A DNA stretch of 64,000 nucleotides, taken from Colwellia sp. PAMC 20917 (GTDB lineage: Bacteria > Pseudomonadota > Gammaproteobacteria > Enterobacterales > Alteromonadaceae). The position numbers and the translations under genes are program-made. Positions 9,594 through 38,092 of the stretch are shown here, piece after piece. The notes under the pieces were generated by a model. It saw only the letters and a program-made list of their open reading frames with translations, ran no database searches and was not told the DNA's origin. Every line of letters begins with the position of its first letter. Position 1 is the first letter of the stretch. The stretch covers positions 1,674,001 through 1,738,000 of the forward strand of contig NZ_CP014944.1 of assembly GCF_001767295.1 (NCBI RefSeq). The letters run 5' to 3'.

Positions 9594-11540
9594 CTAACTA
9601 TCATGAACAATTCGATTACTTATTAAGTTTTCTACAACGCTAGGATCTGCCAAGGTCGATGTATCCCCTAAGGTATCAATATCGTTTTCAGCAATTTTAC
9701 GTAAGATGCGACGCATTATTTTACCAGAACGTGTTTTTGGCAAGCCAGGTGCATACTGAATATAATCAGGTTTTGCAAAACGGCCTAACTCCTTAGCAAC
9801 AAACTCAGTTAGTTCTTTCAGTAACTCTGGTGATTCACTCGCACTAGCCATTAAAGTCACATAAGCATAAACTCCTTGGCCTTTAATTTCATGCGGATAA
9901 CCAACAACAGCAGCTTCGGCTACAGCAGGATGAAGCACTAAAGCACTTTCGATCTCAGCAGTACCTAAACGATGGCCCGAAACATTAAGGACATCATCAA
10001 CACGTCCGGTGATCCAATAAAACCCGTCCTCATCACGACGTGCACCATCTCCAGTAAAATAATTACCAGGATATTGGCTTAAATAGGTTTGATAAAAACG
10101 CTCATGATCGCCATAAACTGTCCGTAACTGCCCAGGCCAACTGCCTGTTATGATTAATAAACCTTGGTCAGCACCTGCAAGTGTATTACCTTCTTTATCA
10201 AACAATGCTGGCTGAACACCAAAAAACGGTTTACCTGCTGCACCTGGTTTCATATCAACAGCACCAGGTAATGAAGTAATTAGAATCCCCCCTGTTTCTG
10301 TTTGCCACCAAGTATCAACAATAGGACAGTTAGACTTACCAACCACTTCATAATACCAATGCCAAGCTTCAGGATTAATAGGCTCGCCAACCGTACCCAG
10401 TAAACGCAACGATGAAAGATCTGATTGATGGACTAAATCGTCGCCAATACTCATCAAGGCTCTTATCGCAGTAGGTGCAGTATAAAAAATATTAACTTTA
10501 TGCTTTTCACATATTTGCCAGAAACGTCCAGCATCAGGGTAAGTAGGTACCCCTTCAAATACTAGTGTAGTTGCACCGTTAGCTAACGGGCCATAGAAAA
10601 TATAAGAGTGACCGGTGATCCAACCTGCATCTGCAGTACACCAATAAATTTCGCCATCTTTATAGTCAAAAACATATTTATGAGTCATCGCGGCATAGAG
10701 CGAATAACCACCACAGGTATGTAAAACACCTTTTGGTGTGCCTGTTGAACCTGATGTATAGAGAATAAACAATGGATCTTCTGCATCCATGACCTCTGGT
10801 TCACAAACAGCTGATTGCTTGGCAACTTCTTCTTCGTAACTGATGTCTATTTTGTCATTCCATGCGACATCACCACCGGTGCGTGCAACGACAATAACTG
10901 TATGTACATTGGGGCATTCGGCAACAGCTTCATCAACGTTCACTTTTAGTGGAATAACACGACCGCCACGTAAGCTTTCATCTGAAGTGATAACAACTTG
11001 GCAATCAGCATCAGCAACTCGTGAGCGGATAGCCTCAGTTGAGAAACCACCAAAGACAACAGAATGTACCGCGCCAATTCGAGCACAGGCTAACATGGCA
11101 TAACCCACTTCAGGGATCATCGGCATATAGATACAAACCCTATCACCTTTTTTAACACCACGTGCTTTTAATAAGTTCGCTAAACGACAAACATGATCAT
11201 GTAATTCTTGATAAGTGATTTTTTTGTCGTCACTGGGATCATCGCCTTCCCAAATGATAGCCGTATCATTGGCTTTAGTAGCTAAGTGACGATCAATACA
11301 GTTATAACTTACATTTAATTTACCACCAGAAAACCATTTAATATCAGCCGTTTTCAAGTCAACATCACTAACACTGTCCCAGGGCTTATACCAATCAAGA
11401 AATTTTTCAGCTTGCTCACCCCAAAATACATCAGGTTGTTCAATCGATTGCTTGTACATCGCATCGTATGTTGCACTATCAATATGAGTGTGTGCTTTAG
11501 CTTGTTCTAAAACTGGATAACAGCTTTTCAATTCTTTCAT
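9594..11540 (-). CDS. acs: Acetyl-CoA synthetase (AMP-forming)
   Basis: Activates acetate to acetyl-AMP and then acetyl-CoA for acetate scavenging in the cytoplasm. 648 residues, the normal Acs length. Adenylate-forming motif [22 protein letters not shown] in the acyl pocket; [13 protein letters not shown] and [15 protein letters not shown] hinge region; C-terminal [11 protein letters not shown] with Lys607, the lysine acetylated in characterised Acs. A good Shine-Dalgarno AAGGA lies six bases before the ATG. A palindrome containing a TATAAT hexamer sits just upstream and may be the promoter/operator. Confidence 0.96.
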
Positions 11541-11559
11541 GTTGAGTCCTTCATTGCTG

Positions 11560-11578
11560 ACTTGATATTATATCAAGT
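11560..11578 (-). promoter_or_regulatory. 19-bp palindrome containing a -10 hexamer upstream of acs
   Basis: Perfect dyad acttgatat-t-atatcaagt, about 20 bases before the acs start codon. On the minus strand its centre reads TATAAT, a consensus -10 element, and a 5' leader of roughly 25 bases with AAGGA would follow. The -35 position is poor (ATTTAA at 17 bases), as expected for an activator-dependent promoter. An operator overlapping the -10 is inference. Confidence 0.5.
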
Positions 11579-11764
11579 TGATTATTGCTTAAATGCTATT
11601 GATATTCATCTAAGCACTAATAGATTTTGAGGTTATTTTTAAAACAGTGACAACATCATATAGGAAGTTAATTAGTGCGACTACTCAACTAAAGTCGAAT
11701 ACGCCTGATTAAATTTACATTAAAATGAAAAAAGATAATTGCCTACTAATAAGATTAACATTGA
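11579..11764. other. Rest of the acs upstream gap, no gene
   Basis: Remainder of the 313-base gap between acs and the 81-residue gene. AT-rich; apart from the palindrome beside acs and the hairpin at its far end I see no ORF, RNA or recognisable site. Confidence 0.4.
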
Positions 11765-11798
11765 AACCTAACAATGACAACGCTGTCATTGTTAGGTT
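11765..11798 (-). terminator. 15-bp perfect hairpin downstream of the 81-residue gene
   Basis: Arms aacctaacaatgaca and tgtcattgttaggtt are perfectly complementary around the loop acgc. It lies 55 bases past the stop of the small gene. On the minus strand the hairpin is followed only by TTTCAATG, so it is not a textbook terminator; the long A/T tract is on the other side. It may be a terminator with a weak tail or an RNA-stabilising 3' stem. Confidence 0.45.
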
Positions 11799-11853
11799 AA
11801 AAAAAAGCAAAATAAATTGCTATTAGCGGACCAAGGAGCCTTTAATAGATACG

Positions 11854-12099
11854 TTAACGAATAGTGATATCGGGGGAACCGTCAATTTCACCATCTTCGG
11901 TAATGATAACAGTACCACTATTATTTGATAATACAGCAATGCTACGTCCATTGTTATTACGTATAAAAAGCAATTGATAGCCAAACTTACCTAGACTACC
12001 CGCTGAAAACTTTTGAGCAAGTGTTAGCTTCTCCCACCAAACTGAATGCTCAGGAGATTCGTGTCTTCTCTCATTGAAAGGTTGCTTTTGTAGTTGCAT
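11854..12099 (-). CDS. Small hypothetical protein (81 residues)
   Basis: I do not recognise a family. The protein is soluble, with an acidic/basic N-terminal stretch containing SVWWEKLTLAQKFSAGSLG, a central beta-like YQLLFIRN, and a C-terminal VIITEDGEIDGSPDITIR. No signal peptide, membrane segment or cysteine pair. Coding is supported by a strong Shine-Dalgarno (GGGTGG, seven bases before the ATG), codon use like its neighbours, and a 3' hairpin. It lies between acs and acpS on the same strand but separated from both by more than 100 bases. Confidence 0.7.
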   Translation of the reverse strand: MQLQKQPFNERRHESPEHSVWWEKLTLAQKFSAGSLGKFGYQLLFIRNNNGRSIAVLSNNSGTVIITEDGEIDGSPDITIR

Positions 12100-12219
12100 A
12101 ACTTATCCACCCGTTAAATAAATACTAACGTCATTGTATCAATATAGCCCAGATAAACAGCGGTGCCTATTGTTAGTATAGAACAGATTTTACCAACGTA
12201 GATTTTTTTATTGCTTTAA

Positions 12220-12600
12220 CTAGCGAGAAAGTACCACGAACGCGGTAGCATATAATGCTTCATCAGAGAGCGAAATGTGCCAGTTTTCAGCCCCTAATTC
12301 AGTTGCTAACTCTGCTGCACGACCACTTAGTAGTAGTTGTGGCTGACCAGAAGCTAATGATTTTATTTCAAAATTTTGAAATGAAACCCCATTGGCTATG
12401 CCGGTACCAAGCGCTTTGGATGCTGCTTCTTTTCCTGCCCAGCGCTTTGCTAAATATAATGCAGGGGTTTTTAACGATTGGTATTTTTCATATTCTATTG
12501 GCGTTAACACACGAAGCGCTAATCGGTCTCGCACCTTAATCGCCATTTTTTCTATACGGCTTATTTCAATAATATCAGTGCCGATGCCAACTACAGACAT
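12220..12600 (-). CDS. acpS: Holo-[acyl-carrier-protein] synthase
   Basis: Transfers 4'-phosphopantetheine from CoA to the serine of acyl carrier protein. 126 residues, standard AcpS length. GIGTDIIEISRI carries the first Mg-binding Asp and LAKRWAGKEAASKALGTG the family signature with the second acidic metal ligand; ends in LSDEALYATAFVVLSR. Last gene of the lepA-lepB-rnc-era-recO-pdxJ-acpS series, 125 bases after pdxJ, the usual pdxJ-acpS pairing in gammaproteobacteria. Confidence 0.95.
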   Translation of the reverse strand: MSVVGIGTDIIEISRIEKMAIKVRDRLALRVLTPIEYEKYQSLKTPALYLAKRWAGKEAASKALGTGIANGVSFQNFEIKSLASGQPQLLLSGRAAELATELGAENWHISLSDEALYATAFVVLSR

Positions 12601-12725
12601 AATGAATCACTTTTTTAAGCGCTAGATAAATGCTGTATTAACATTTAGTTTAGCTTCACTTGGTTAAATAAGGCAGAACTTTATTAGCTCTGCCGAGTAG
12701 GTTCTAGGTGCTGTGCTCTAAAAAG

Positions 12726-13457
12726 TTAACTACGCGCTTCTCTCATTAGCTGTTTCATATCGCGAATAGCTTTGTCTAATCCGTCAATCACCGCTCGAGC
12801 AATAATAGCATGACCAATGTTAAGTTCGATTATCTCTTCAATTGCCGCAATAGGTTTAACATTAAAGTAATTTAACCCGTGCCCAGCATTAACTTTCAAA
12901 CCATTAGCATGCGCATATTTAATACCTTCAATTAAACGGATCAATTCAATTTTTTGATCTTGTTCATTTTTTGCATCAGCATAATGGCCAGTATGAATTT
13001 CAATATAAGGAGCTTTACTTGCAATAGCAGCATCAATTTGACTTTTATCAGCATCAATAAATAAACTTGTTTCTATACCTGCAGCAGTGAGTTGTGCCAC
13101 TGCACGGCTAATTTTATCAAAATTACCAACAATGTCTAAGCCACCTTCAGTCGTCAACTCTTCACGTTTTTCAGGGACTAGGCAACAAAATTCTGGTTTA
13201 ACCTCACATGCTATAGCCAGCATTTCATCAGTGACCGCCATTTCAAAATTCATTCGGGTATGCAATGTTTGCTTTAGTACATAAATATCACGGTCTTGAA
13301 TATGACGGCGGTCTTCACGTAAATGCACGGTAATGCCATCGGCTCCAGCGTGCTCTGCTACTGATGCAGCATAGACAGGATCAGGATAATTTGTGCCTCT
13401 TGCTTGTCTTAAGGTAGCAATATGGTCAACATTAACGCCTAATAATAGTTCGCTCAT
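12726..13457 (-). CDS. pdxJ: Pyridoxine 5'-phosphate synthase
   Basis: Condenses 3-amino-2-oxopropyl phosphate with 1-deoxyxylulose 5-phosphate in vitamin B6 synthesis. 243 residues, a TIM barrel. [22 protein letters not shown] is the N-terminal signature (His in VDHIA); [30 protein letters not shown] and [13 protein letters not shown] are family motifs. Lies 17 bases after recO on the same strand, with acpS next, so it belongs to the lepA-acpS transcription unit. Confidence 0.96.
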
Positions 13458-13474
13458 TTTTTTATCTCTTAAAT

Positions 13475-14161
13475 TTATGAATTTTTTGTAAATAATTTCC
13501 GGCTATTAAGTGGTTTACCATCTAGTAAATGATTAATAATTTGCCGCATCAGCACTTTATACGTTTGCATGACGTCTTTAGATGATAAATCTTCTTCGGC
13601 TATCGCCTTTAAATGCACAGCATTGTAACCAGTCTGTACCTGCTTGCTTATTATCGGGACAAAACCTTGTTCAGGGAAATAATGATAACGATGATTATTT
13701 TCTGAAAATATCGTTGAATAATCAATAGTTAACCCTAATTCTTCTAGTAATCTATTTTCAAAATTCCTCAATATAAATTCAATTGAACGTTGTTCCGATA
13801 ATTGTTCAATACTTTGTTGATATTGACAAAAAAGTTCGTCATAAGGGATATGTTCACCCAGTAGACGCACTTGTAACTCGTTAAGGTAAAAGCCACTGTA
13901 GAGGTAATTACCACTGAGCTGGTAGGATTTTCTTTCGGGTTCGACACGTTGTAAATACTTGAGGCTGCCTTGACCTTTCAAAACAATTTTTAGCGGAGAG
14001 AAAGGTTGTAGTAAAGCTTTTTTATTAGATTTTAAGGACTTACCTAAATAAGAAATAGCAGACACTTTTCCTTGTTGAGCGGTTAAGAATTCAAGCAATA
14101 TTTGATTTTCACGATAAGGTCGTGAATGCAATAAAAAAGCACTTTGCTCAAATTCTTCCAT
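13475..14161 (-). CDS. recO: DNA repair protein RecO
   Basis: Helps load RecA onto SSB-coated DNA in the RecFOR pathway. 228 residues, typical of RecO. N-terminal OB-fold region with [18 protein letters not shown] and [11 protein letters not shown]; helical C-terminal domain with [14 protein letters not shown] and the [12 protein letters not shown] helix. The zinc cysteines of some RecO proteins are absent, as in other gammaproteobacteria. Begins 29 bases after era. Confidence 0.93.
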
Positions 14162-14190
14162 TATTTTTAGTCCAGTAGACGGTTCGAAGT

Positions 14191-15102
14191 CTAACCTGAA
14201 TATTCATCCCCATAGCCTAAACTACGCAGTGCACGTTCATCATCAGCCCAGCCAGATTTCACTTTCACCCAAGTTTCAAGAAACACTTTCTGTTCAAAAA
14301 GCGCTTCCATATCACGACGAGCTTCTTGACCAATTGTTTTAAGTCGCTCCCCACCATTACCTATAACCATACGCTTTTGACTTTTTCGTTCCACTAAAAT
14401 CAGCGCATTAATATGGATGATACCCTTTTCGTCCATTTTAAATTGTTCAACTTCGACGGTCGTTGAATAGGGCAATTCATCACCAGTGAAACGAATAAGT
14501 TTTTCACGAATAATTTCAGAAGCCATAAAACGACTTGAACGGTCAGTAACATAATCATCTGGGAACCAGAAATCACCTTCAGGCAGTGAACTAAGACAAA
14601 GTTGACGAATGGTATCAACGTTATCGCCTTTCGCTGCAGAGATAGGTACGATATCACTAAAGTTGTGCTTCTCGCCTAATTTCTGCAAGTGAGGTAATAA
14701 TGATTCTTTATCTTGAACATTATCGATTTTATTAATCACTAAGATACAACGAGCGCCAGATTTTTTTATCTTACTAAGCACAAGTTCGTCATCAGTTGTC
14801 CAATGTGTACCTTCAACCAAGAAAACCACTAATTCGACTTCTGCTATTGAACTACTTGCAGCACGATTCATTAAGCGATTAATCGCGCGTTTCTCATCAG
14901 AATGCAAACCAGGAGTATCAACTAATACCGCTTGTTTATTTTCTTCTGTTAAAATTCCTAAAATACGATGGCGTGTCGTTTGTGGCTTGCGTGAGGTGAT
15001 ACTAATTTTTTGGCCTAACAAGCTGTTAAGCAATGTTGATTTACCAACATTAGGACGACCGACAATAGCAATTAAGCCACAATGTTTATTTTCACTTGTC
15101 AT
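14191..15102 (-). CDS. era: GTPase Era
   Basis: Essential GTPase for 16S rRNA 3'-end maturation and 30S assembly. 303 residues. G1 [15 protein letters not shown]3 DTPG ([17 protein letters not shown]), G4 NKID, then a C-terminal KH domain with [22 protein letters not shown]. Downstream of rnc by 17 bases, the conserved rnc-era-recO order. Confidence 0.97.
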
Positions 15103-15119
15103 GATAATATTTCGCTGAG

Positions 15120-15809
15120 TTATTTTTTATCAAAAATGAGCGCGAGTACTTGTTGCGCTGCGGCTTGTTCGGCTTTACGACGGCTAGTGCCTTTAGTGAT
15201 CACTTCGGTGTTTATCACATTGGTTGTACATCGCACAGTAAACTGTTGATTATGAGACTGACCACTGGTGTGAATGACTTCATAAAGTGGTAAAGCAATT
15301 TTACGTGCTTGTAAATATTCTTGTAAACGTGTTTTAGGATCTTTTTGTTCGTTACCGGGTCTAATAATATCTAATCGTTCAGCAAACCAGCTAAGCACTA
15401 ACGCTTTAGTGGTGTCGTTATCTGAATCTAAATAGACAGCGCCGATAATTGCTTCAACGGCATCTTCTAAAATGGAATCTCGACGATGGCCACCGCTTTT
15501 TAATTCACCTGGGCCTAAAATTAAGTATTCGCCTAAATTAAAGCCTCGGCCAATTTCAGCTAAGGTAACACCTCGCACAAGGCTAGAGCGCATTCGTGTT
15601 AAATCACCTTCGTCATGAGAAGGAAATTGCTGATAAAGTACTTCAGCAATGACAAAACCAAGAATGGAGTCGCCAAGAAACTCTAAACGTTCGTTATGAG
15701 TTCCTTTAGCACTTCGGTGTGTTAATGCTTGAAGCAATAAGTCATTATCATTAAAGGTGTATCCTAACTTTTTACTGAGTCTAGTTAGTGCGACTGCTGA
15801 GCTTTTCAC
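15120..15809 (-). CDS. rnc: Ribonuclease III
   Basis: Double-strand-specific endonuclease for rRNA and mRNA processing. 229 residues. The catalytic signature [15 protein letters not shown] carries the acidic metal ligands; a second acidic cluster is in [20 protein letters not shown]-terminal double-stranded-RNA-binding domain begins near residue 155 ([11 protein letters not shown]) and ends [16 protein letters not shown]. Two bases separate it from lepB, implying translational linkage. Confidence 0.97.
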
Positions 15810-15811
15810 GA

Positions 15812-16732
15812 TTAGTTTATTCCACCTAAACGTGAAAACCTGACATTAGTCGGTATCCACTTAGGTAAAAAGCTCTCTTCGTCACGATCAAAATCAAAAC
15901 TCATCCAAATTGCTACGGCTTCGCCAACAAGATTTTCTTCGGGTACAAAGCCCCAAAAGCGTCCATCAAGGCTATTATCGCGGTTATCCCCCATCACATA
16001 ATAATGACCTTCAGGTACAAAGAACTCATCGCGTTGGGTATTTTTCTGTTGATAAAAGTGCTGCGTGCGTGGCAGTATTTGATTATCCATTAAAATATCA
16101 TGTGTCTTGTTTGGCATATCAGCCGTGTAACGGCTTAAGCCATATGAACCGTCAGGTGACTCATCTTCTTTTTTAAAGGTATTTATTACTTGCTCAAAGT
16201 CTGGGCATTTAACGTCACTTTCTTGACAAGCAGGCTTGATATATATGGATTTGTTACGATAAATAATTCTATCGCCAGGCAAACCAATAACACGCTTAAT
16301 ATAATCAATCTTTGGGTCTTGTGGATATTTAAAGACCACCACATCGCCACGTTCTGGTAGCCCGACCTCAATAAATTTATTACGTGCAACAGGATCGCGT
16401 AATCCATATACGAATTTATTGACTAAAATAAAATCGCCATCAAGTAATGTCGGCATCATAGAGCCCGAAGGTATTTGAAACGGTTCCCATAAAAAAGAAC
16501 GTAAAATCAAAACAAAAGCGATAACCGGAAATATTTGTACCGACGTATCAACAATTGCTGAAGGCTCTAATAATTGAGCGATAACCTCAGCTGGCAAAAC
16601 TTCTTGACATTGGGCTTGAGCGTCAGCTAATTTTAATTTACGTTGCGGCGCTAAATAAAACTTATCAGCTAACCAAACAATGCCAGTGATACTAGTAATA
16701 ATAACGAGAAATATTGAAAAATAAACAGCCAT
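15812..16732 (-). CDS. lepB: Signal peptidase I
   Basis: Inner-membrane serine protease that cleaves signal peptides from exported proteins. 306 residues. Two hydrophobic N-terminal segments (about 3-22 and 68-85) flank a cytoplasmic loop. The catalytic serine is in [15 protein letters not shown], the lysine in [12 protein letters not shown], and [12 protein letters not shown] is the C-terminal family box. Between lepA (10 bases upstream) and rnc. Confidence 0.96.
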
Positions 16733-16742
16733 AACTTCCCTA

Positions 16743-18533
16743 CTAACTTTCTAATTTAAGTACAGCTAAAAACGCTTCTTGCGGTACTTCAACGTTACCA
16801 ACTTGCTTCATACGTTTTTTACCATCTTTTTGTTTTTGAAGTAGTTTTTTCTTACGAGAAATATCACCACCATAACATTTTGCCGTAACATTTTTTCGTA
16901 ATTGCTTAACGGTAGTACGAGCAATAACGTTATTACCAATCGCCGCTTGAATAGCAATATCAAACATTTGACGATGAATAAGTTCTTTTAATTTATCGAC
17001 GAGCATACGGCCACGTGCGACCGAGTTACCTCTGTGGGTGATCATTGCTAAAGCATCAACGCGATCGCCATTTATCATCACATCAACGCGCACCATGTCG
17101 GCAGCTTCGAAGCGGATAAAATTATAATCAAGTGAAGCATAACCTCGACTCGTTGACTTTAACTTATCAAAAAAGTCCATGACCACTTCAGCCATAGGCA
17201 GCTCATATCTTACCGCTACTTGTTTTCCGTGATAAATAATATCTTTTTGCACACCGCGTTTTTCGATACATAAAGTAATAACATTACCTAAGTGTTCTTG
17301 GGGTACTAAGATATTTGCTTCAACAATAGGTTCACGAATTTCGTCAATACTGTTGATAGCCGGTAAATCTCCGGGGTTATCAATAGATATTACGTCACCG
17401 TTGGTACAAGCAATTTCATAGTTAACCGTAGGGGCTGTTGTAATAAGGTCAAGGTCATATTCACGCGCTAAACGCTCTTGAACAATCTCCATATGCAACA
17501 TACCAAGGAAACCAATACGAAAGCCAAAGCCAAGCGCAGATGAGTTTTCTGGTTCAAAAAACAAAGAAGCATCGTTTAAGCTTAACTTGTTCAACGCATC
17601 ACGGAAATTTTCGTAGTCATCAGAACTTATTGGGAAAATCCCAGCATAAACTTGCGGTTGAACCTTTTTGAAACCGGCAAGTGCTTTTGCGGCTTCTTTT
17701 TTATGAATGGTAATAGTATCGCCCACTGGCGCGCCATGTATTTCTTTAATACCAGCAATAATAAAACCAACTTCACCGGTTCTTAAAATACCCGTTTCTT
17801 TTTGTTTTGGTGTGAATATTCCGACTTTATCAATTTGGTGAACTTGTCCTGTCGACATGACCACCATTTTATCGCCTTTTTTCACTTCGCCATTCATCAC
17901 ACGCACTAATGAAACAACGCCTTGGTAATTATCAAACCAAGAATCAATGATCAAGGCTTGTAAGTTACCCGTAGGATCGCCGGTTGGCGCAGGGATATTG
18001 GCAACGATAGTTTCTAAAACATCTTCGATACCTAAGCCAGTTTTTGCAGAACACTGCACTGCACCTGTCGCATCAATACCAATGATATCTTCAATTTCTT
18101 CGCTAACGCGATCCGGATCCGCTTGAGGTAAATCAATCTTATTTAAAATTGGAATAACTTCTAGATCCATTTCAAGGGCGGTATAACAGTTGGCAACGGT
18201 TTGTGCTTCAACGCCTTGTCCGGCATCGACAACAAGTAAGGCACCTTCACAAGAAGCAAGTGAACGCGAAACTTCATAAGAAAAATCAACATGACCCGGC
18301 GTATCGATAAAGTTAAGCTGATACGTTTCACCATTTTTGGCTAAGTAATCAAGCGTAACACTTTGCGCTTTAATCGTGATGCCGCGCTCACGCTCAATGT
18401 CCATAGAGTCTAGGACTTGTGCTTCCATTTCACGTTCTTGTAAGCCACCACAATGTTGGATCAAGCGATCAGAAAGTGTAGATTTACCATGATCGATATG
18501 GGCGATAATTGAAAAGTTACGTATATTTTTCAT
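16743..18533 (-). CDS. lepA: Elongation factor 4 (LepA)
   Basis: Ribosome-associated GTPase acting in translation and 30S biogenesis. 596 residues. G1 [15 protein letters not shown]3 DTPGHVDF, G4 [10 protein letters not shown]5 CSAKTG, then EF-G-like domains and the LepA-specific C-terminus ending [18 protein letters not shown]. First gene of the minus-strand unit running to acpS; its promoter should lie in the 257-base gap before rseC. Confidence 0.97.
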
Positions 18534-31361: not shown

Positions 31362-32546
31362 TTAGCGACTATCAACAAACCCTTGTAATGATTCCAGTAT
31401 CATTGAAAAGTTTTTTGCACCCAGCCCTAAACGAAAATATGGCCCAGTAAGCCCAAATAGGCATGATGGGTAAGCGAATATTCCCGCTTGTTCAGCGAGT
31501 TGCTCAGCCCATTCAAGCATGGGTAAATCACTATGGCACTTTACCAATGTAAGTAAGCCTGCCTGAGGAGGACACCAACTAAAATGCAACTGATTTTTGT
31601 CGATAAATTGCTGAAATAACGCGATATTATCTTTGATAATAAGATTATTTTTACTGATGATTTTAACATGGTTTTCTAAAGCAAGCTCTGCCAGCTTTTC
31701 ATCAACGATTGAAGTACAAATTGAGCCTTGAGCTTTTACCGCTAATAATCGTTTTAGCAGTGATTTATCCTTAGACACTGCCCAACCAATACGTAGCCCC
31801 GCCAAACCAAAACTTTTCGATAATACCGAGACAACAATCGTGCGATCATAATCTAAATAGCGATGAGCTAATTTAAGATCATTATAGTTACTTGCTTGAG
31901 AGACGTCATCGGCTAAAAGGTAACAATTGAACTGTTTTGCAATGGCTAATATTTGTTCCGAAAATTGAGTGTCTATTATGCTACCACTGGGATTATGGGG
32001 AGAATTCAAGACGATTAGTCGGGTATTTTCGTTTACTAGCGCTAAAAGTGCCGCTTGGTTAATTTGCCAGTTTTGTTGAAAATCAACCGTAAGGCACCTT
32101 ACTTTAATCCCCATCTGCTCTGCCATCGTCACCAAAGAGGGATAGCAAGGTGTAATAACAACAATTTCAATCGCTGCTTGTTGCTCAACTGTATTATCTT
32201 GCGTTCGTTCATTTTCGCTAAGTACTGTTTGGTAAATAGCTAACAACGCCTCTTGAGCGCCACAAAAAGTTAGAACATTGTCAGCAGTTAACTCAACTTG
32301 ATGATGATTATAGTCTTGATGAAAACCGGCAATAAGTGATCGCAAATAATGGCTGCCACTTATCGACGCATAGGATAACGCTTGTTCACCCAGAAGATTA
32401 TCAAGACTTGTTTCACCTAAAAGGCACAATTGTGCTGCGGACAACGACTGTCCGCAAGAATTACTCAAATTGTGTTTAATAGTGACCTTTTGATTTTCTG
32501 CAAGCTGTTGACCAAAGGCGATATGTGCCGGTAAAATATTTTTCAT
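31362..32546 (-). CDS. ovoB: PLP-dependent fold-I enzyme, probable OvoB sulfoxide lyase
   Basis: Aspartate-aminotransferase-fold enzyme of 394 residues. I chose MKNILPAHIAFG as start because longer versions overlap ovoA; it begins five bases after the ovoA stop with AAGG in the gap. Motifs: FCGAQEALL (PLP phosphate loop), LNSPHNPSGS, LLADDVSQ (Asp near 213-214), and PLP lysine Lys244 in VLSKSFGLAGLRIGW. Alone it would be called a class I/II aminotransferase, but tight coupling to ovoA points to OvoB, which cleaves the 5-histidylcysteine sulfoxide to 5-thiohistidine. That assignment is contextual. Confidence 0.75.
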   Translation of the reverse strand: MKNILPAHIAFGQQLAENQKVTIKHNLSNSCGQSLSAAQLCLLGETSLDNLLGEQALSYASISGSHYLRSLIAGFHQDYNHHQVELTADNVLTFCGAQEALLAIYQTVLSENERTQDNTVEQQAAIEIVVITPCYPSLVTMAEQMGIKVRCLTVDFQQNWQINQAALLALVNENTRLIVLNSPHNPSGSIIDTQFSEQILAIAKQFNCYLLADDVSQASNYNDLKLAHRYLDYDRTIVVSVLSKSFGLAGLRIGWAVSKDKSLLKRLLAVKAQGSICTSIVDEKLAELALENHVKIISKNNLIIKDNIALFQQFIDKNQLHFSWCPPQAGLLTLVKCHSDLPMLEWAEQLAEQAGIFAYPSCLFGLTGPYFRLGLGAKNFSMILESLQGFVDSR

Positions 32547-32551
32547 CCTTG

Positions 32552-34675
32552 CTATATTTTCCGCTGCCAAACCGACATTTCGGTGGTTGTCACGGTGAAA
32601 GTGCATTGATTTTTCTTAATCACACGCGTTAATGGCTGTGCGTCTAAAAAAGTAAACTCTTCTGCTAATTTTTCCTGTAAACCATCAAAGCCAATAACAT
32701 TTTCACCATTGACTTTAAGCCCACCCAGCCAGTTTTCTTTTTCAGTGTGTTTCGCTGAGTATTGATGGTCGGTTAATACAAAAAGTAAACCTTGTTTATT
32801 AAGTCGCTTAGACAGTGTGGCTAACAACTGTTTGGGTTGATAACTTTTTTCTAGCGCATGCTCAACTAAAATCGCATCATAACCGTTAAAAATAGGTTTT
32901 AAATTGCTCGCATCACCCTGACTAAAAACAATATGATCAGCGTTGTTGTTTAGCGATAAAGCCTTAAGAGACACCTCATGAAAACTCTGTATGTCACCAG
33001 AAATAACATTGGTGTAACGGAGTGTTTTCTGTTGTTGAAGTTGCACACCAAATTGAATATAACGCGCAGAAAAATCTACCGCATCAATATGCTGAAAATG
33101 CTCTGACAACTCAAAAGTCGTTCGTCCAACACTACAGCCTAAGTTCATTAACTTGTCGGTATTAATGCCCTGAGCTTTTACTTTACTAAGCAATAATTGG
33201 CTAACTTGTTGTGAATAGTTTTCAACACTTAAATGTTGCTCACCATAATGACTGTCGAGTTGCTGACAAACTTCACGATCAGTTTCATATCGATTAACCG
33301 GCGTTAATGGTATTTTTCCATCGATGTTTTCAACATAACGAAAACCTGCATGCTGAGTAAAGTGACGACGAAAAGCATAACGAGACGACGGAATGGTTTC
33401 ATTGCCGGTAGAAATCCATGAACCGCCTTTAATTAAGTTATGTTTACCATCAAAGGTTGGCGTAGAGAAATCATCATAAAGTGGATGAACTTTAAACCCC
33501 TCATAACCATCTATTGCTGACTCATTCCATTGCCATACATTGCCAATAACATCATAAAAATCTCCCGTTGAAAATTCATCAATCGGGCATGAAGAAGCGT
33601 AACGCGCCAAGTTTATATTAACTAATACTTGCTCTTCATTATCGCTGGCATTATTCATTAGACAATGCCACTGCGCTTCAGTAGGCATAGCAATGTTTTT
33701 TTGAGTTTGTTCACTTTTCCAATGGCAGAAAGCTTTCGCTTCTAGGTAGTTCACTTCTGCAGGCCAATTCAAAGGTAAAGGCATTTCATTAAGCAAGTTG
33801 CGCTGCACGTATTCATCGTTATTTTTTCGCCAAAAACGCGGCATTTCAGCTTTGGTGAAACTTAGCCACTTTTGCCCTTCTTCGCTCCAATAATGTGGCT
33901 TTTTGTAACCACCTGCATCGATAAAAGCTAAAAACTCTTGATTAGAGACTAAATATTTAGACGCTGAAAAGGCACTAACCTCAACAGATAACTCACCATA
34001 TTCGTTGTCCCAGCCATAAGTTTCATCGGTCAACTTTTTACCTAATACAATAGATTGTTCTGTAACAGGTAATAATTCGTTCTCTGGAGCCGTTGAAAAA
34101 TGAGCACAACTTGTCCATTGCCCCGCTTCATCAGATGGCTGTGTTAAACAATCTAGTGGTAACATGCGCATAATAACTGATGAAGTCTCAAGATGAATGC
34201 GTTCATGCTCACAGCCCATCAATATCACCCAAGCTAACGAGTCTTGTTTGATAGGTAAACTAATTTCCATGGTATCAATTAAGTTATTAACCACAGTGAA
34301 CACTTGTTGGCGGTATTCTCTTACTTCATCAACATTAGGCCAGTCGTAATGCTCACTGTTGAGATCGTCCCAGCTCATTTCATCAACACCAACAGCACAA
34401 ACAGCTTCTAACTTGGTATTAACACGCTTATTAATGTACTTACCCAAAAGTAATTTATTAATAAAAAAAGTAGCCGTATGGCCAAAATAAAAAATAAGTG
34501 GATGGCGTAAACTCTCAGGCCGTAAATAATAGGCTTCATCTTTGTTGATTAAAGCAAACAACGACTCGTAAGTCGTCCAAGTATTATGGAAGTAGTTTTT
34601 TAGCTCGGCGCGTTTATCATCTATAGATAAACCATTAAGCTGTGGGGTGATATTTTGATTATTAATAAGAGTCAT
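32552..34675 (-). CDS. ovoA: 5-histidylcysteine sulfoxide synthase / thiohistidine methyltransferase OvoA
   Basis: Iron(II) enzyme joining cysteine sulfur to C5 of histidine with O2 in ovothiol synthesis. 707 residues, three modules. DinB-like N-terminal domain supplies His66 (FGHTATF) and the HERIH pair His157/His161, the expected iron triad. A formylglycine-generating-enzyme/sulfatase-modifying-type domain spans about 205-450 (YGWDNEYGE, IGNVWQWNES, IKGGSWIS, YAFRRHFTQHAGFRYV). A SAM methyltransferase domain from about 465 (LMNLGCSVGRTTFEL) should methylate the imidazole to give ovothiol A. The C-terminal methyltransferase separates it from EgtB of ergothioneine synthesis. Follows the GS-like gene by 18 bases. 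Confidence 0.92.
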   Translation of the reverse strand: MTLINNQNITPQLNGLSIDDKRAELKNYFHNTWTTYESLFALINKDEAYYLRPESLRHPLIFYFGHTATFFINKLLLGKYINKRVNTKLEAVCAVGVDEMSWDDLNSEHYDWPNVDEVREYRQQVFTVVNNLIDTMEISLPIKQDSLAWVILMGCEHERIHLETSSVIMRMLPLDCLTQPSDEAGQWTSCAHFSTAPENELLPVTEQSIVLGKKLTDETYGWDNEYGELSVEVSAFSASKYLVSNQEFLAFIDAGGYKKPHYWSEEGQKWLSFTKAEMPRFWRKNNDEYVQRNLLNEMPLPLNWPAEVNYLEAKAFCHWKSEQTQKNIAMPTEAQWHCLMNNASDNEEQVLVNINLARYASSCPIDEFSTGDFYDVIGNVWQWNESAIDGYEGFKVHPLYDDFSTPTFDGKHNLIKGGSWISTGNETIPSSRYAFRRHFTQHAGFRYVENIDGKIPLTPVNRYETDREVCQQLDSHYGEQHLSVENYSQQVSQLLLSKVKAQGINTDKLMNLGCSVGRTTFELSEHFQHIDAVDFSARYIQFGVQLQQQKTLRYTNVISGDIQSFHEVSLKALSLNNNADHIVFSQGDASNLKPIFNGYDAILVEHALEKSYQPKQLLATLSKRLNKQGLLFVLTDHQYSAKHTEKENWLGGLKVNGENVIGFDGLQEKLAEEFTFLDAQPLTRVIKKNQCTFTVTTTEMSVWQRKI

Positions 34676-34693
34676 ATTTTATTTTTAAATTAA

Positions 34694-35833
34694 TTATGAT
34701 GTATGAGTGAGAATAAGTTTTTGTTGATACGGCGCTAAAATCATTTGCTTTAATTTGTCACCTAACAGCAACTGCCCTGATATTTGCTCACCATTTATAA
34801 ATTGACCCGATAGCTTATTTAAACGTTCGCTAAACCAGTGATCATTTGCAAATAGTGATATTGCGCCCAATTTTTCTTGCTCTGTATTATCATACAATGA
34901 AAAAGGTAAATCTTGATGATGAACTTCTTTACGGAGCAATTTGCGACAGTTATCCACTTTATATACTTCAAGCGCGTCAATTAAGTTCAATAAAGAGTAA
35001 AGAATATTAAAATAAGCATTGTATTGCATACTTGAAGCACCAATTCTATGCTCGATACGAGCAGTTTTTTGCCAATTTTGTCGCTTAACTAGCACTTCAT
35101 TTTTATGATTAAAAAGTACCGGCTCTTCGCCCATCGCTTGGTTATGTTTACCCACTTCTTTATACAAGGCAATACTGCCTTGGTGTCCGCCTGAGATATC
35201 AACGGGTGAACATAACTCAGCCGCTAAACCGTATTTAGTTTTTAATGCTAGTCGCTCAAAAGCTTCTTCTTCAGGTAAATAAATCAAACAACAATTAAAG
35301 CTAGTCTCCAGAAAACATTGCTGTAAATATTCACCAAAGCCGCGTTCAATAATAATGTTTTTACCTTCACTATCAAGCGCACTAATATTCATTTGAACAG
35401 CATTAGGGATATGCACTGCCCGTGTTTCTGTGCTGAAAATATCACCACAGCCACTGGCTAACTTACCTTTATCGCCAGACCAGACAACTGGTTTGATTAA
35501 TGTTTTACTGATGCCTTGTTCGGCAAACAAACGAGGTAAAAGGTGTAACGCTTGGCTTAAATTATTAGCTTCTTTTAACGGCGACTGGCCATTAAATAAA
35601 GAAACATACTCCCACTGACTATACCAATACTCTGGCACTAATTCTCCGTCAATTCCGGCATGCGCTAACTGACGATTAATTCTTTGATAATCTAATGAAA
35701 ATCTTTTTATTTTACTATCGAGCTGATAACAACCTTCTAATTCAAAGTGAATGACAGGAGTAAAGCCAAGCTGTTTTATATAATTCTGTAATAATATAAT
35801 AGCTTGGACGGCTAACGGTGTTGTATTATTCAT
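34694..35833 (-). CDS. Divergent glutamine-synthetase-fold ligase in the ovothiol operon
   Basis: 379 residues from ATG (MNNTTPLAVQ); longer starts overlap the upstream gene. No named family recognised, but glutamine-synthetase-like signposts occur in order: Glu31/Glu33 in HFELEGCY, YSQWEYVSLF with SPLKEANNL (compare GQHE...kkaD), TLIKPVVW (compare TFMPKP), VQMNISAL (compare GMHxHLSL), and C-terminal ARIEHRIGASSMQYNAY (compare RRIExRxxDPxxNPY). This predicts ATP-dependent carboxyl activation and amide or gamma-glutamyl bond formation. Placed 18 bases before ovoA, so a substrate in thiol metabolism (ovothiol, 5-thiohistidine, cysteine or histidine) is inferred. Not a normal nitrogen-assimilation GlnA, being shorter and lacking the tyrosine adenylylation loop. 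Confidence 0.65.
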   Translation of the reverse strand: MNNTTPLAVQAIILLQNYIKQLGFTPVIHFELEGCYQLDSKIKRFSLDYQRINRQLAHAGIDGELVPEYWYSQWEYVSLFNGQSPLKEANNLSQALHLLPRLFAEQGISKTLIKPVVWSGDKGKLASGCGDIFSTETRAVHIPNAVQMNISALDSEGKNIIIERGFGEYLQQCFLETSFNCCLIYLPEEEAFERLALKTKYGLAAELCSPVDISGGHQGSIALYKEVGKHNQAMGEEPVLFNHKNEVLVKRQNWQKTARIEHRIGASSMQYNAYFNILYSLLNLIDALEVYKVDNCRKLLRKEVHHQDLPFSLYDNTEQEKLGAISLFANDHWFSERLNKLSGQFINGEQISGQLLLGDKLKQMILAPYQQKLILTHTS

Positions 35834-35849
35834 ATGAGATAATGGCTTT

Positions 35850-37745
35850 CTATTGATATATAACCACATTATTTTTACCGTTACGCTTTGCCTGGTAAAG
35901 GGCAGCATCGGCATGTAGGTATAACATTTCACTCGTTGGGCTAAGTTGAGACAAGGTTGCTATACCGATACTTACGGTTAATTGTAAACTTGGCTCGACT
36001 TGGAAAACTTGCTGACTTATTTTTTTTAAAAAACGTTCGGCAATTACTTTACATTGCTTTTCGTCGGTACGAGGTAAAATACATAAGAATTCTTCTCCGC
36101 CAACACGGCCAATGACATCTTCATTACGAAAGACATCATGACAAAGATCAGCTATTTTTTTAATAACTGTATCACCAACAGGATGACCAAACTTATCATT
36201 GACCATTTTAAAGTCGTCAATATCAAATAAAATGACCGAAAGTTCAGTTTTTTCTACTAAGACATCGTTAAGGTAATTCGATAAGTACTCAAAAATATAG
36301 CGACGGTTATATAAATTTGATAATGGGTCTTTAATTGACAGTGCATACATTTTCTTATTATTTTTATACTGAATGGTTATCACAATAATGACAACCACGC
36401 CGGAACATAGCATAAAAATCAGTAGATAAAGGTTCTGTAATTTTTGTTGCTGATAAGAATCATTTTCTAAAGCAGCGACCTTTTCTCGTTGCAGGGTAAG
36501 TGCTTGTTCAATATATTTTCGCTCATTTTCCATCGCAGCGCGCGCTGTGGTTAATCGTGTACTGGAATTTTTTACCAGTAATTCATTGTATTTTTGATAG
36601 TACTGTCGAGATAATTGAAAAGCTTCACTGTCATTATTTCTTGCGTGAGCAAGCTCTGAGCCAAGCTTTATAACTTCTAATTGCCACTTAGTGCCGACTA
36701 ATTCAGGTAAAGACATGAATATGTTTTCAGCTTTAGTCAACGATGCTTGCGCTTGTGCTAACTCACCCAAGATAATAAAACAGTGAACCTGTTGCTTATA
36801 TAATTCGGCATTATAATCAATCAAGCCATTTAACGTTAGGGCATGATTAATAACATCAATAGCTTTAACACAATCGCCTTTTTCGGCCAGTGTCATACCT
36901 AAACCGTAAGCTGAAAAAAAAGAAATTTCAGTGTTAGGAGTATAGGCAATTTTTTCTTGATAAAGCTCAAAGTAGCGAATCGCCAAATCATATTTTTGCC
37001 AATATCGATAGGTTATAGCAATGCCGTAAATAGCCTCTGAAACATGAGCAGGATAATTTAAACGTTCGTAAGTATTTAATGCTTTTTGGTAATATTCTAT
37101 CGATTTTTCATAATCATCCATATAGCCATAAATAGCACCGTAGGTTTCATTGATAACAGCAATTAGAAAGTGTTCTTTTAGTGAATAAGCATCTAAGTAA
37201 GCTTCTTGCATCTCATTCAATGATAGTTCAAAGAGCTCGGTGATACTTTTTGTAAAAGCAAGCTCTTGTTTAGCAAGAATAAAAAGGTAAGTTAAATTAT
37301 TTTTTTTTGCTATGGACATAGCCTTTTGAAGAATAATTACAGAATCTGCATACTGAGCGTGGCGACGGTAAATTATCCCCTGATAAATATAAAGGTGACT
37401 ATGAATTTTTAATGGGGTTTTGTCGTCGATAAGCGCTACGGCTTGTGCTACGGTCTTATTAAAGTCTTCATAAAAATAGAGTAAATTTTCTGCTTGAGCT
37501 TTACGTAACAACCACCAAGATTGTTGTAGCTTTGGCATAGTTGAAAAAGACTTTTCTGCGTTTAATAATTGTTGATAAGACTGCAGAGGTTGTTGGCGTA
37601 TTTCTTCATCCATGTTCAATAAGCGACTTAGCTCATCGGTTTGTTCTACGGCTAATTGGCCACTACTATTTGCCTGTGATTGACTACAGGAAAAAAAAAA
37701 GATAATAACAACAACCGAAAAAAACCGATAAAAATCAAATTTCAT
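35850..37745 (-). CDS. TPR-sensor diguanylate cyclase (GGDEF)
   Basis: 631 residues. N-terminal signal/anchor (hydrophobic 5-19, ending FFFSCSQSQA), a periplasmic array of TPR-like helical repeats about 60-400 (for example DYEKSIEYYQKALNTYERL and KYDLAIRYFELYQEK), a coiled region, a membrane helix about 438-458 (LYLLIFMLCSGVVVIIVITI), then a GGDEF domain with LYNRRYIFEYL, FDIDDFKMVND and the active-site GRVGGEEF. Makes c-di-GMP. It ends 16 bases before the GS-like gene on the same strand, so it may share the ovothiol transcript; the ligand sensed is unknown. Confidence 0.9.
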   Translation of the reverse strand: MKFDFYRFFSVVVIIFFFSCSQSQANSSGQLAVEQTDELSRLLNMDEEIRQQPLQSYQQLLNAEKSFSTMPKLQQSWWLLRKAQAENLLYFYEDFNKTVAQAVALIDDKTPLKIHSHLYIYQGIIYRRHAQYADSVIILQKAMSIAKKNNLTYLFILAKQELAFTKSITELFELSLNEMQEAYLDAYSLKEHFLIAVINETYGAIYGYMDDYEKSIEYYQKALNTYERLNYPAHVSEAIYGIAITYRYWQKYDLAIRYFELYQEKIAYTPNTEISFFSAYGLGMTLAEKGDCVKAIDVINHALTLNGLIDYNAELYKQQVHCFIILGELAQAQASLTKAENIFMSLPELVGTKWQLEVIKLGSELAHARNNDSEAFQLSRQYYQKYNELLVKNSSTRLTTARAAMENERKYIEQALTLQREKVAALENDSYQQQKLQNLYLLIFMLCSGVVVIIVITIQYKNNKKMYALSIKDPLSNLYNRRYIFEYLSNYLNDVLVEKTELSVILFDIDDFKMVNDKFGHPVGDTVIKKIADLCHDVFRNEDVIGRVGGEEFLCILPRTDEKQCKVIAERFLKKISQQVFQVEPSLQLTVSIGIATLSQLSPTSEMLYLHADAALYQAKRNGKNNVVIYQ

Positions 37746-37864: not shown

Positions 37865-38092
37865 TTAATCCTCGTAAAGCGCTTTAAAAGCCGCCACTTT
37901 AAAACCTTGCAGATATTCTTCGCCTATCTTTATTACCGGTACGGATCTAAAGTTTGCTCTGCGAAACTCTTTTTGTCCCGCGGCTGTTTTCACATTACAT
38001 AAACGATAAGCAATGTTGTTTTTATCTAAGTACGCTTTCGCCGTGTCACAATGAGGGCAGTTACTCATACTATATAAGACAATTTTCTTCAT
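37865..38092 (-). CDS. Glutaredoxin-like protein
   Basis: 75 residues, a single glutaredoxin/NrdH-size thioredoxin fold. Dithiol active site SNCPHCDTAK (Cys12, Cys15), cis-proline in RSVPVIKIGEEYLQGF. The active-site CPHC differs from the CPYC of classic glutaredoxins. Lies 119 bases upstream of the GGDEF gene on the same strand, next to the low-molecular-weight thiol genes, though its own transcription unit cannot be excluded. Confidence 0.87.
   Translation of the reverse strand: MKKIVLYSMSNCPHCDTAKAYLDKNNIAYRLCNVKTAAGQKEFRRANFRSVPVIKIGEEYLQGFKVAAFKALYED

Follow-up and report, generated by a model that had tools for sequence, protein, structure and literature searches.

A glutamine-synthetase-fold protein encoded beside ovoA in Colwellia and its relatives: a candidate thiohistidine ligase

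Organisation of the ovo locus

The window analysed here, i.e. the whole stretch of 64,000 nucleotides from Colwellia sp. PAMC 20917, carries a locus of four genes, all on the minus strand and transcribed in the order TPR-GGDEF, GSL (a protein of the glutamine synthetase, GS, fold), OvoA and PLP enzyme (Table 1). The intergenic gaps are 16 bases between the TPR-GGDEF and GSL genes, 18 bases between GSL and OvoA and 5 bases between OvoA and the PLP gene, and these coordinates agree with the one-directional arrangement given in a preliminary description of this DNA. The diguanylate cyclase named in that description was likewise recovered, with an intact RVGGEEF motif in a GGDEF domain of 144 bits.

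Table 1. Features of the ovo locus, with positions counted within the window
Feature	Coordinates	Strand	Evidence
TPR-GGDEF membrane diguanylate cyclase	35850..37745	-	GGDEF 143.9 bits, TPR_12 48.1 bits
GSL, GS-fold protein, 379 aa	34694..35833	-	ATG start; profile comparison and predicted structure
OvoA, 707 aa, 5-histidylcysteine sulfoxide synthase with C-terminal methyltransferase domain	32552..34675	-	TIGR04344, TIGR04345
PLP enzyme, 394 aa, OvoB-like by position	31362..32546	-	ATG at 32546; Aminotran_1_2 125.7 bits
Glutaredoxin-like protein (CPHC), 75 aa, loose upstream neighbour	37865..38092	-	Glutaredoxin 47.7 bits

An alternative start of GSL, the GTG at 35932 from the list of open reading frames, was rejected, for it would overlap the GGDEF gene, and the closest relatives share the ATG start. 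The closest named relative of GSL belongs to Colwellia hornerae (93% identity).

OvoA, also proposed in the preliminary description, exceeded both NCBIfam equivalog-domain cut-offs, namely those of TIGR04344 (654 bits, cut-off 400) and TIGR04345 (260 bits, cut-off 170), and matched a solved OvoA structure in the PDB (8khq, E = 1.7e-214, residues 20-705). Judged by these matches, its identity is unambiguous and both predicted domains are present.

The setting of the locus is normal chromosome. Scans for promoters and terminators revealed no enrichment over shuffled sequence, and no tRNA was found in the 64-kb window. It should be added that positions 9594-18533 (minus strand) hold core genes, with an acetyl-CoA-synthetase-like enzyme followed by the order pdxJ-recO-era-rnc-lepB-lepA.

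Fold and family of GSL

The GS fold was not detected when GSL was searched as a single sequence against Pfam, NCBIfam and PDB. The GSL profile reached in PDB a best E of 0.14, to an unrelated enzyme, and none of 23 GSL members matched PF00120 at E up to 1. The GS catalytic fold was seen by profile comparison (HHalign) and in the predicted structure, both of which support the GS-like ligase fold suggested earlier. The GS comparison set consisted of 28 of 30 fetched GS loci, with L185 and L192 omitted as two pieces of one short odd GS. The GSL profile aligned to nine other GS homologues with E = 7e-5 and to 19 GlnA with E = 0.0072; in our reading, the nine closer homologues are probably of the PuuA type, i.e. 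amine-using.

The GSL alignment (A2) comprised 43 of the 67 GSL sequences obtained (those of the 66 loci plus that of the window), hand-picked for spread and completeness and 39-93% identical to the GSL of the window. The AlphaFold model was built with these 43 sequences, the single-sequence model having a pLDDT of only 32; its pLDDT was 65-88 over residues 191-240 and below 50 for residues 120-140. Foldseek returned a TM-score on the query of only 0.57, and in structural alignments GSL was 13-19% identical to structures of the GS family. GSL is under purifying selection, with dN/dS of 0.10-0.12 over four pairs (0.06-0.13 for OvoA).

The possibility that GSL is the glutamine synthetase or the glutamate-cysteine ligase of the cell was discarded, since the genome carries its housekeeping GlnA and GshA genes at other sites. 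GSL constitutes, as far as we can tell, an undescribed family.

Active-site residues and domains

Residue numbers of GlnA given for the alignments are counted with the first methionine. In the comparison with the mixed GS set, E31 (present in 42 of 43 GSL sequences) and E33, E68, E75 and E261 (43 of 43 each) align with GlnA E130, E132, E213, E221 and E358. These correspond to E129, E131, E212, E220 and E357 of GS, which we take to be the five metal-binding glutamates of the two-metal site, and the metal site of GSL is apparently kept. In the two comparisons with larger or mixed sets, R194, invariant in all 43 sequences, aligns with R322 or R364; R321 of GS is presumably the arginine of the glutamate alpha-carboxylate site. 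R259 and R263, kept in 42 or 43 of the 43 sequences, align in the mixed set with GlnA R356 and R360 (first methionine counted), presumed to be phosphate or nucleotide arginines.

When GSL was compared with just the nine other GS homologues, the residue map was the same for E31, E33, E68, E75, E261, R194, R259 and R263. With the 19 GlnA alone, where the local alignment is weak, E75, R259, E261 and R263 were kept, E68 shifted by one, onto H212, E31, E33 and R194 were unaligned and residues 187-232 were placed elsewhere.

Other parts of the active site are altered. The positions of GlnA H270, R340 and R345 are occupied in GSL by Q147, Q232 and E237 (HHalign), the last two falling in the stretch near 187-240 where the alignment is uncertain; they correspond to H269, R339 and R344 of GS, of which R339 and R344 are, we assume, catalytic arginines. 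Furthermore, the N-terminal beta-grasp domain of about 100 residues, which completes the active site of GS, is absent from GSL by alignment: residue 5 of GSL aligns locally to GlnA residue 102, only 30 residues precede E31, and the structural alignments, for which first and last residues were given, start at chain residues 19-60. Because of the three replacements and the absence by alignment of the N-terminal domain, the activity of GSL is not assured. By its full set of predicted features, GSL is GS-like in fold and metal site, yet no glutamine synthetase.

Linkage of GSL to ovoA

Among 196 sampled genomes from the family of the window, 52 were found to hold GSL and 65 to hold ovoA over the cut-off. 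In each of the 52 GSL genomes ovoA adjoins GSL on the same strand, the matched stretches lying 34-208 bases apart, while GSL was present in none of the 131 sampled family genomes without ovoA over the cut-off. Thirteen of the 65 ovoA genomes are without GSL. A broader scan of one genome per species (84,980 species) was done with two exact peptide patterns, so that distant relatives of GSL were missed; it revealed 66 GSL loci, in 65 of which ovoA adjoins GSL. At the sole exception, L109, the contig ends right after GSL. GSL precedes ovoA in 63 of the 65 pairs. As these loci and the 52 genomes partly coincide, neither count can be treated as independent of the other. In a sample of the phylum GSL was found in 5 of 398 genomes, all from the family of the window.

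The linkage of GSL and ovoA is far beyond chance. Co-occurrence with ovoA, a check proposed in the preliminary description, was thus found in 52 of 52 genomes and 65 of 66 loci, and GSL homologues lying mainly away from ovoA, which that description had named as speaking against its reading, were not encountered in either set.

As controls, flanks of up to 6 kb were inspected at 29 ovoA or ovoA-like loci without GSL (13 in the family), and no GSL was detected there, with the best profile E being 0.19. Two of these loci, L150 and L151, were chosen from matches below the ovoA cut-off; at both, and at L163, no OvoA-labelled open reading frame was found. At G163:C1:1248529-1251007 the GSL coding sequence is interrupted by stops and continues in a second frame, and the adjoining ovoA is intact, pointing to either a decayed gene or an assembly error; therefore, either OvoA can stand without GSL or the assembly is wrong. 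Other GSL matches that, like this one, weaken the case for strict linkage are those of G013 and G075, which contain a stop, and those of G133, G153 and G171, in which the N-terminus is split.

The preliminary description had presented the four genes as one operon, and as a fixed set this did not hold across the loci. Of the 66 loci, 28 have the PLP gene next to the GSL-ovoA pair and 36 have the GGDEF gene near GSL, some loci in both counts being cut by contig ends. As both genes are optional, the conserved unit consists of GSL and OvoA, and an essential role of the GGDEF gene in it was rejected.

Phylogeny of OvoA and the Robiginitomaculum pairs

In the OvoA tree of 94 rows, from which L163 is absent for want of an OvoA-labelled open reading frame, the GSL label requires 3 changes, the shuffled mean being 24.3. 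A tree of 44 rows was drawn from these 94 and keeps 21 of the 66 GSL rows. It drops five rows without GSL, namely L149, L151, L164 and L165, all flagged long, and L150, located on a long inner branch; the row L162 was retained although it too was flagged. It should be added that L149 joined the Robiginitomaculum rows in the 94-row tree.

Two OvoA of Robiginitomaculum (Alphaproteobacteria) were located in the 44-row tree outside the gammaproteobacterial GSL clade, and a single OvoA clade for all GSL rows was rejected (p-AU 0.011). Nested in the main GSL clade is L147, a row without GSL from an 80% complete genome; as this row alone could have caused the rejection, the test was repeated without it, whereupon the GSL label required 2 changes and one clade was still rejected (p-AU 0.009). 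The GSL-OvoA pairing has therefore arisen or moved more than once.

In the two metagenome-assembled genomes (MAGs) of Robiginitomaculum the order is reversed, ovoA preceding GSL by 4 bases. Their OvoA proteins, 470 and 478 aa in length, end after the sulfoxide-synthase half, and no TIGR04345 methyltransferase over the cut-off of 170 was found in either MAG (best 24.5 bits), though the MAGs may be incomplete. Since the OvoA of these MAGs has no methyltransferase domain, ovothiol A is a less likely substrate of GSL than 5-thiohistidine or an intermediate that precedes it. As to the surroundings of the pair at L124:5952-11315 and L125, a TetR-type regulator lies before it, and a class III aminotransferase and a BKACE-like (3-keto-5-aminohexanoate cleavage) enzyme lie after it.

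Proposed function and its alternatives

We propose, with a probability of slightly more than one half (about 0.52), that GSL works together with OvoA as a module of two enzymes whose end product is a conjugate of 5-thiohistidine or ovothiol. OvoA would couple histidine and cysteine to the sulfoxide, from which a PLP lyase, encoded at the locus or at another genomic site, would free 5-thiohistidine, and the second domain of OvoA may methylate the latter. GSL would then convert, at the expense of ATP, a carboxylate to an acyl phosphate and form an amide bond with the thiohistidine. Alongside the fold, the apparent metal site, the strict link to ovoA and the purifying selection observed for GSL, we infer its catalysis, substrate, direction and product, the gamma-glutamyl or amide conjugate suggested in the preliminary description included. 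Since R194 is kept and the closer match is to GS homologues read as amine-using, glutamate and the thiohistidine amine are the first guess for the substrates; gamma-glutamylation of the thiohistidine alpha-amine, the reaction of PuuA and GmaS, would be the likeliest chemistry of GSL, tentative as this assignment is.

The same fold, metal site and linkage would fit equally well an enzyme activating the carboxylate of 5-thiohistidine or ovothiol and joining it to ammonia, a polyamine or an amino acid, with the amide formed at the opposite end of the molecule, and the conservation of R194 leaves open which amino acid is bound. Such a reaction seems unlikely, considering that most known GS homologues act on glutamate, activating its gamma-carboxylate, and that the closer profile is that of the nine homologues read as PuuA type. 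The position of GSL before ovoA in 63 of 65 pairs could also place it upstream of OvoA, where it would make gamma-glutamylcysteine or an acylated histidine in the manner of EgtA, likewise of a GS-related fold, for mycobacterial EgtB. We consider this role quite improbable, because the genome has GshA and gamma-glutamylcysteine is presumably already made, OvoA passes the 5-histidylcysteine sulfoxide synthase model, and no profile match to GCS2 or GshA was obtained in shallow alignments (HHalign of GSL with PF04107 and PF04262 proteins, E 0.05-0.44 for four small sets of 1-5 sequences).

The apparent loss of two catalytic arginines, H269 and the N-terminal domain would suit a GS-fold protein that assists or regulates OvoA without catalysis of its own; however, the five metal glutamates and the equivalent of R321, kept in 42 or 43 of the 43 sequences, would be needless for a scaffold, and we regard this option as rather remote. 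The poorest prospects are those of a detoxification or salvage enzyme conjugating another amine or a stress product and merely co-regulated with ovothiol: co-regulation would likewise yield operon linkage, but GSL was never seen without ovoA in 52 genomes and 66 loci, save at one contig end, and the pairing is present in two separate OvoA branches.

If the proposed module of conjugation were correct in its fuller form, Colwellia and its relatives would make a new thiol, 5-thiohistidine or ovothiol ligated to glutamate or another amino acid, as the end product of their OvoA pathway, and GSL would be the first known thiohistidine ligase, opening a new family of natural-product ligases with the GS fold, a claim to which we give somewhat less than even odds.

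Relation to known systems

PuuA, GmaS and 1-naphthylamine GS are gamma-glutamyl-amine ligases of the GS family. GSL differs from them in being about 100 residues shorter at the N-terminus and, by alignment, in having Gln at the position of H269 and no Arg at those of R339 and R344; it is 13-19% identical in the structural alignments and is encoded at an ovoA locus. In the ergothioneine pathway, EgtA-EgtB pairs a GS-related ligase with a sulfoxide synthase, as does GSL-OvoA; EgtA is a glutamate-cysteine ligase of the GCS2 type, to which GSL, in the shallow comparison, has no profile match. In contrast to EgtA-EgtB, moreover, OvoA takes free cysteine (PMC12631010). The arrangement resembles the OvoA-OvoB operon in having a two-domain OvoA followed, in the 28 of 66 GSL loci mentioned, by a PLP enzyme, and departs from it in that the constant partner is GSL and not the PLP gene.

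A precedent is provided by 5THNAT, the 5-thiohistidine N-acetyltransferase of Proteiniphilum, encoded beside ovoA; according to PMC12631010, some 5THNATs accompany OvoA homologues without methyltransferase. Like 5THNAT as described there, GSL is a second enzyme beside ovoA and would modify 5-thiohistidine, and in the Robiginitomaculum MAGs it stands, like some 5THNATs, beside an OvoA lacking the methyltransferase. However, 5THNAT is a GCN5-type acetyltransferase using acetyl-CoA, whereas GSL is of the GS fold and would use ATP. This paper from 2025 states that no enzyme other than 5THNAT and OvoA is known to recognise a 5-thiohistidine derivative (PMC12631010); the PDB also contains OvoM, a stand-alone 5-thiohistidine N-methyltransferase. 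The paper further states that conjugation by enzymes may account for complex marine thiohistidine metabolites (PMC12631010). Among the literature matches listed, titles and openings of abstracts mention no GS-fold ligase with ovoA, which constitutes weak evidence of absence. As far as we can tell, there is one known case, 5THNAT, of a tailoring enzyme encoded beside ovoA; what is new about GSL is its fold, its family and how strictly it is linked to ovoA.

With its ligase fold and its constant place beside ovoA in marine bacteria, GSL is a candidate for thiohistidine conjugation; if the proposal is true, the detection of ovoA alone would not tell which thiol an organism makes.

Optional partners and other neighbours

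The PLP protein has the class I/II aminotransferase fold (Aminotran_1_2), and its best sequence match in PDB is 3op7. Among the 25 NCBIfam matches listed, of 77, no cut-off was passed and no OvoB model appeared, the label "OvoB-like" thus being a putative one given by position and family only. In some control loci a class I/II aminotransferase also lies directly after ovoA (6 of 9 hand-picked neighbours scanned), with weak or undetectable matches to the PLP protein of the window.

A relative of the glutaredoxin-like protein is encoded on the same strand in 33 of 66 GSL loci, some of them lacking the GGDEF gene (L079, L084 and L087, for example), and in 1 of 29 control loci. By genomes, it occurs in 42 of the 52 with GSL and in 22 of the 144 others of the family sample, not always at the GSL locus. 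As a fixed part of the module it was rejected, given its presence in only half of the loci (33/66) and given that 22 of the 64 family genomes holding a relative are without GSL; the protein may serve the thiol made at the ovo locus.

Other genes accompany ovoA in particular groups. In seven loci of Paraglaciecola (L104, L106, L111, L113, L116, L117 and L122) a protein read as FAD-dependent monooxygenase-like is encoded after ovoA, and in L138, which has no GSL, a FAD_binding_3 protein is encoded directly upstream of ovoA. In another family of the order, the gene for a VWA-domain protein lies directly upstream of ovoA in L153 and L158, and the upstream gene in L157, from the same family, is of the same length as these two.
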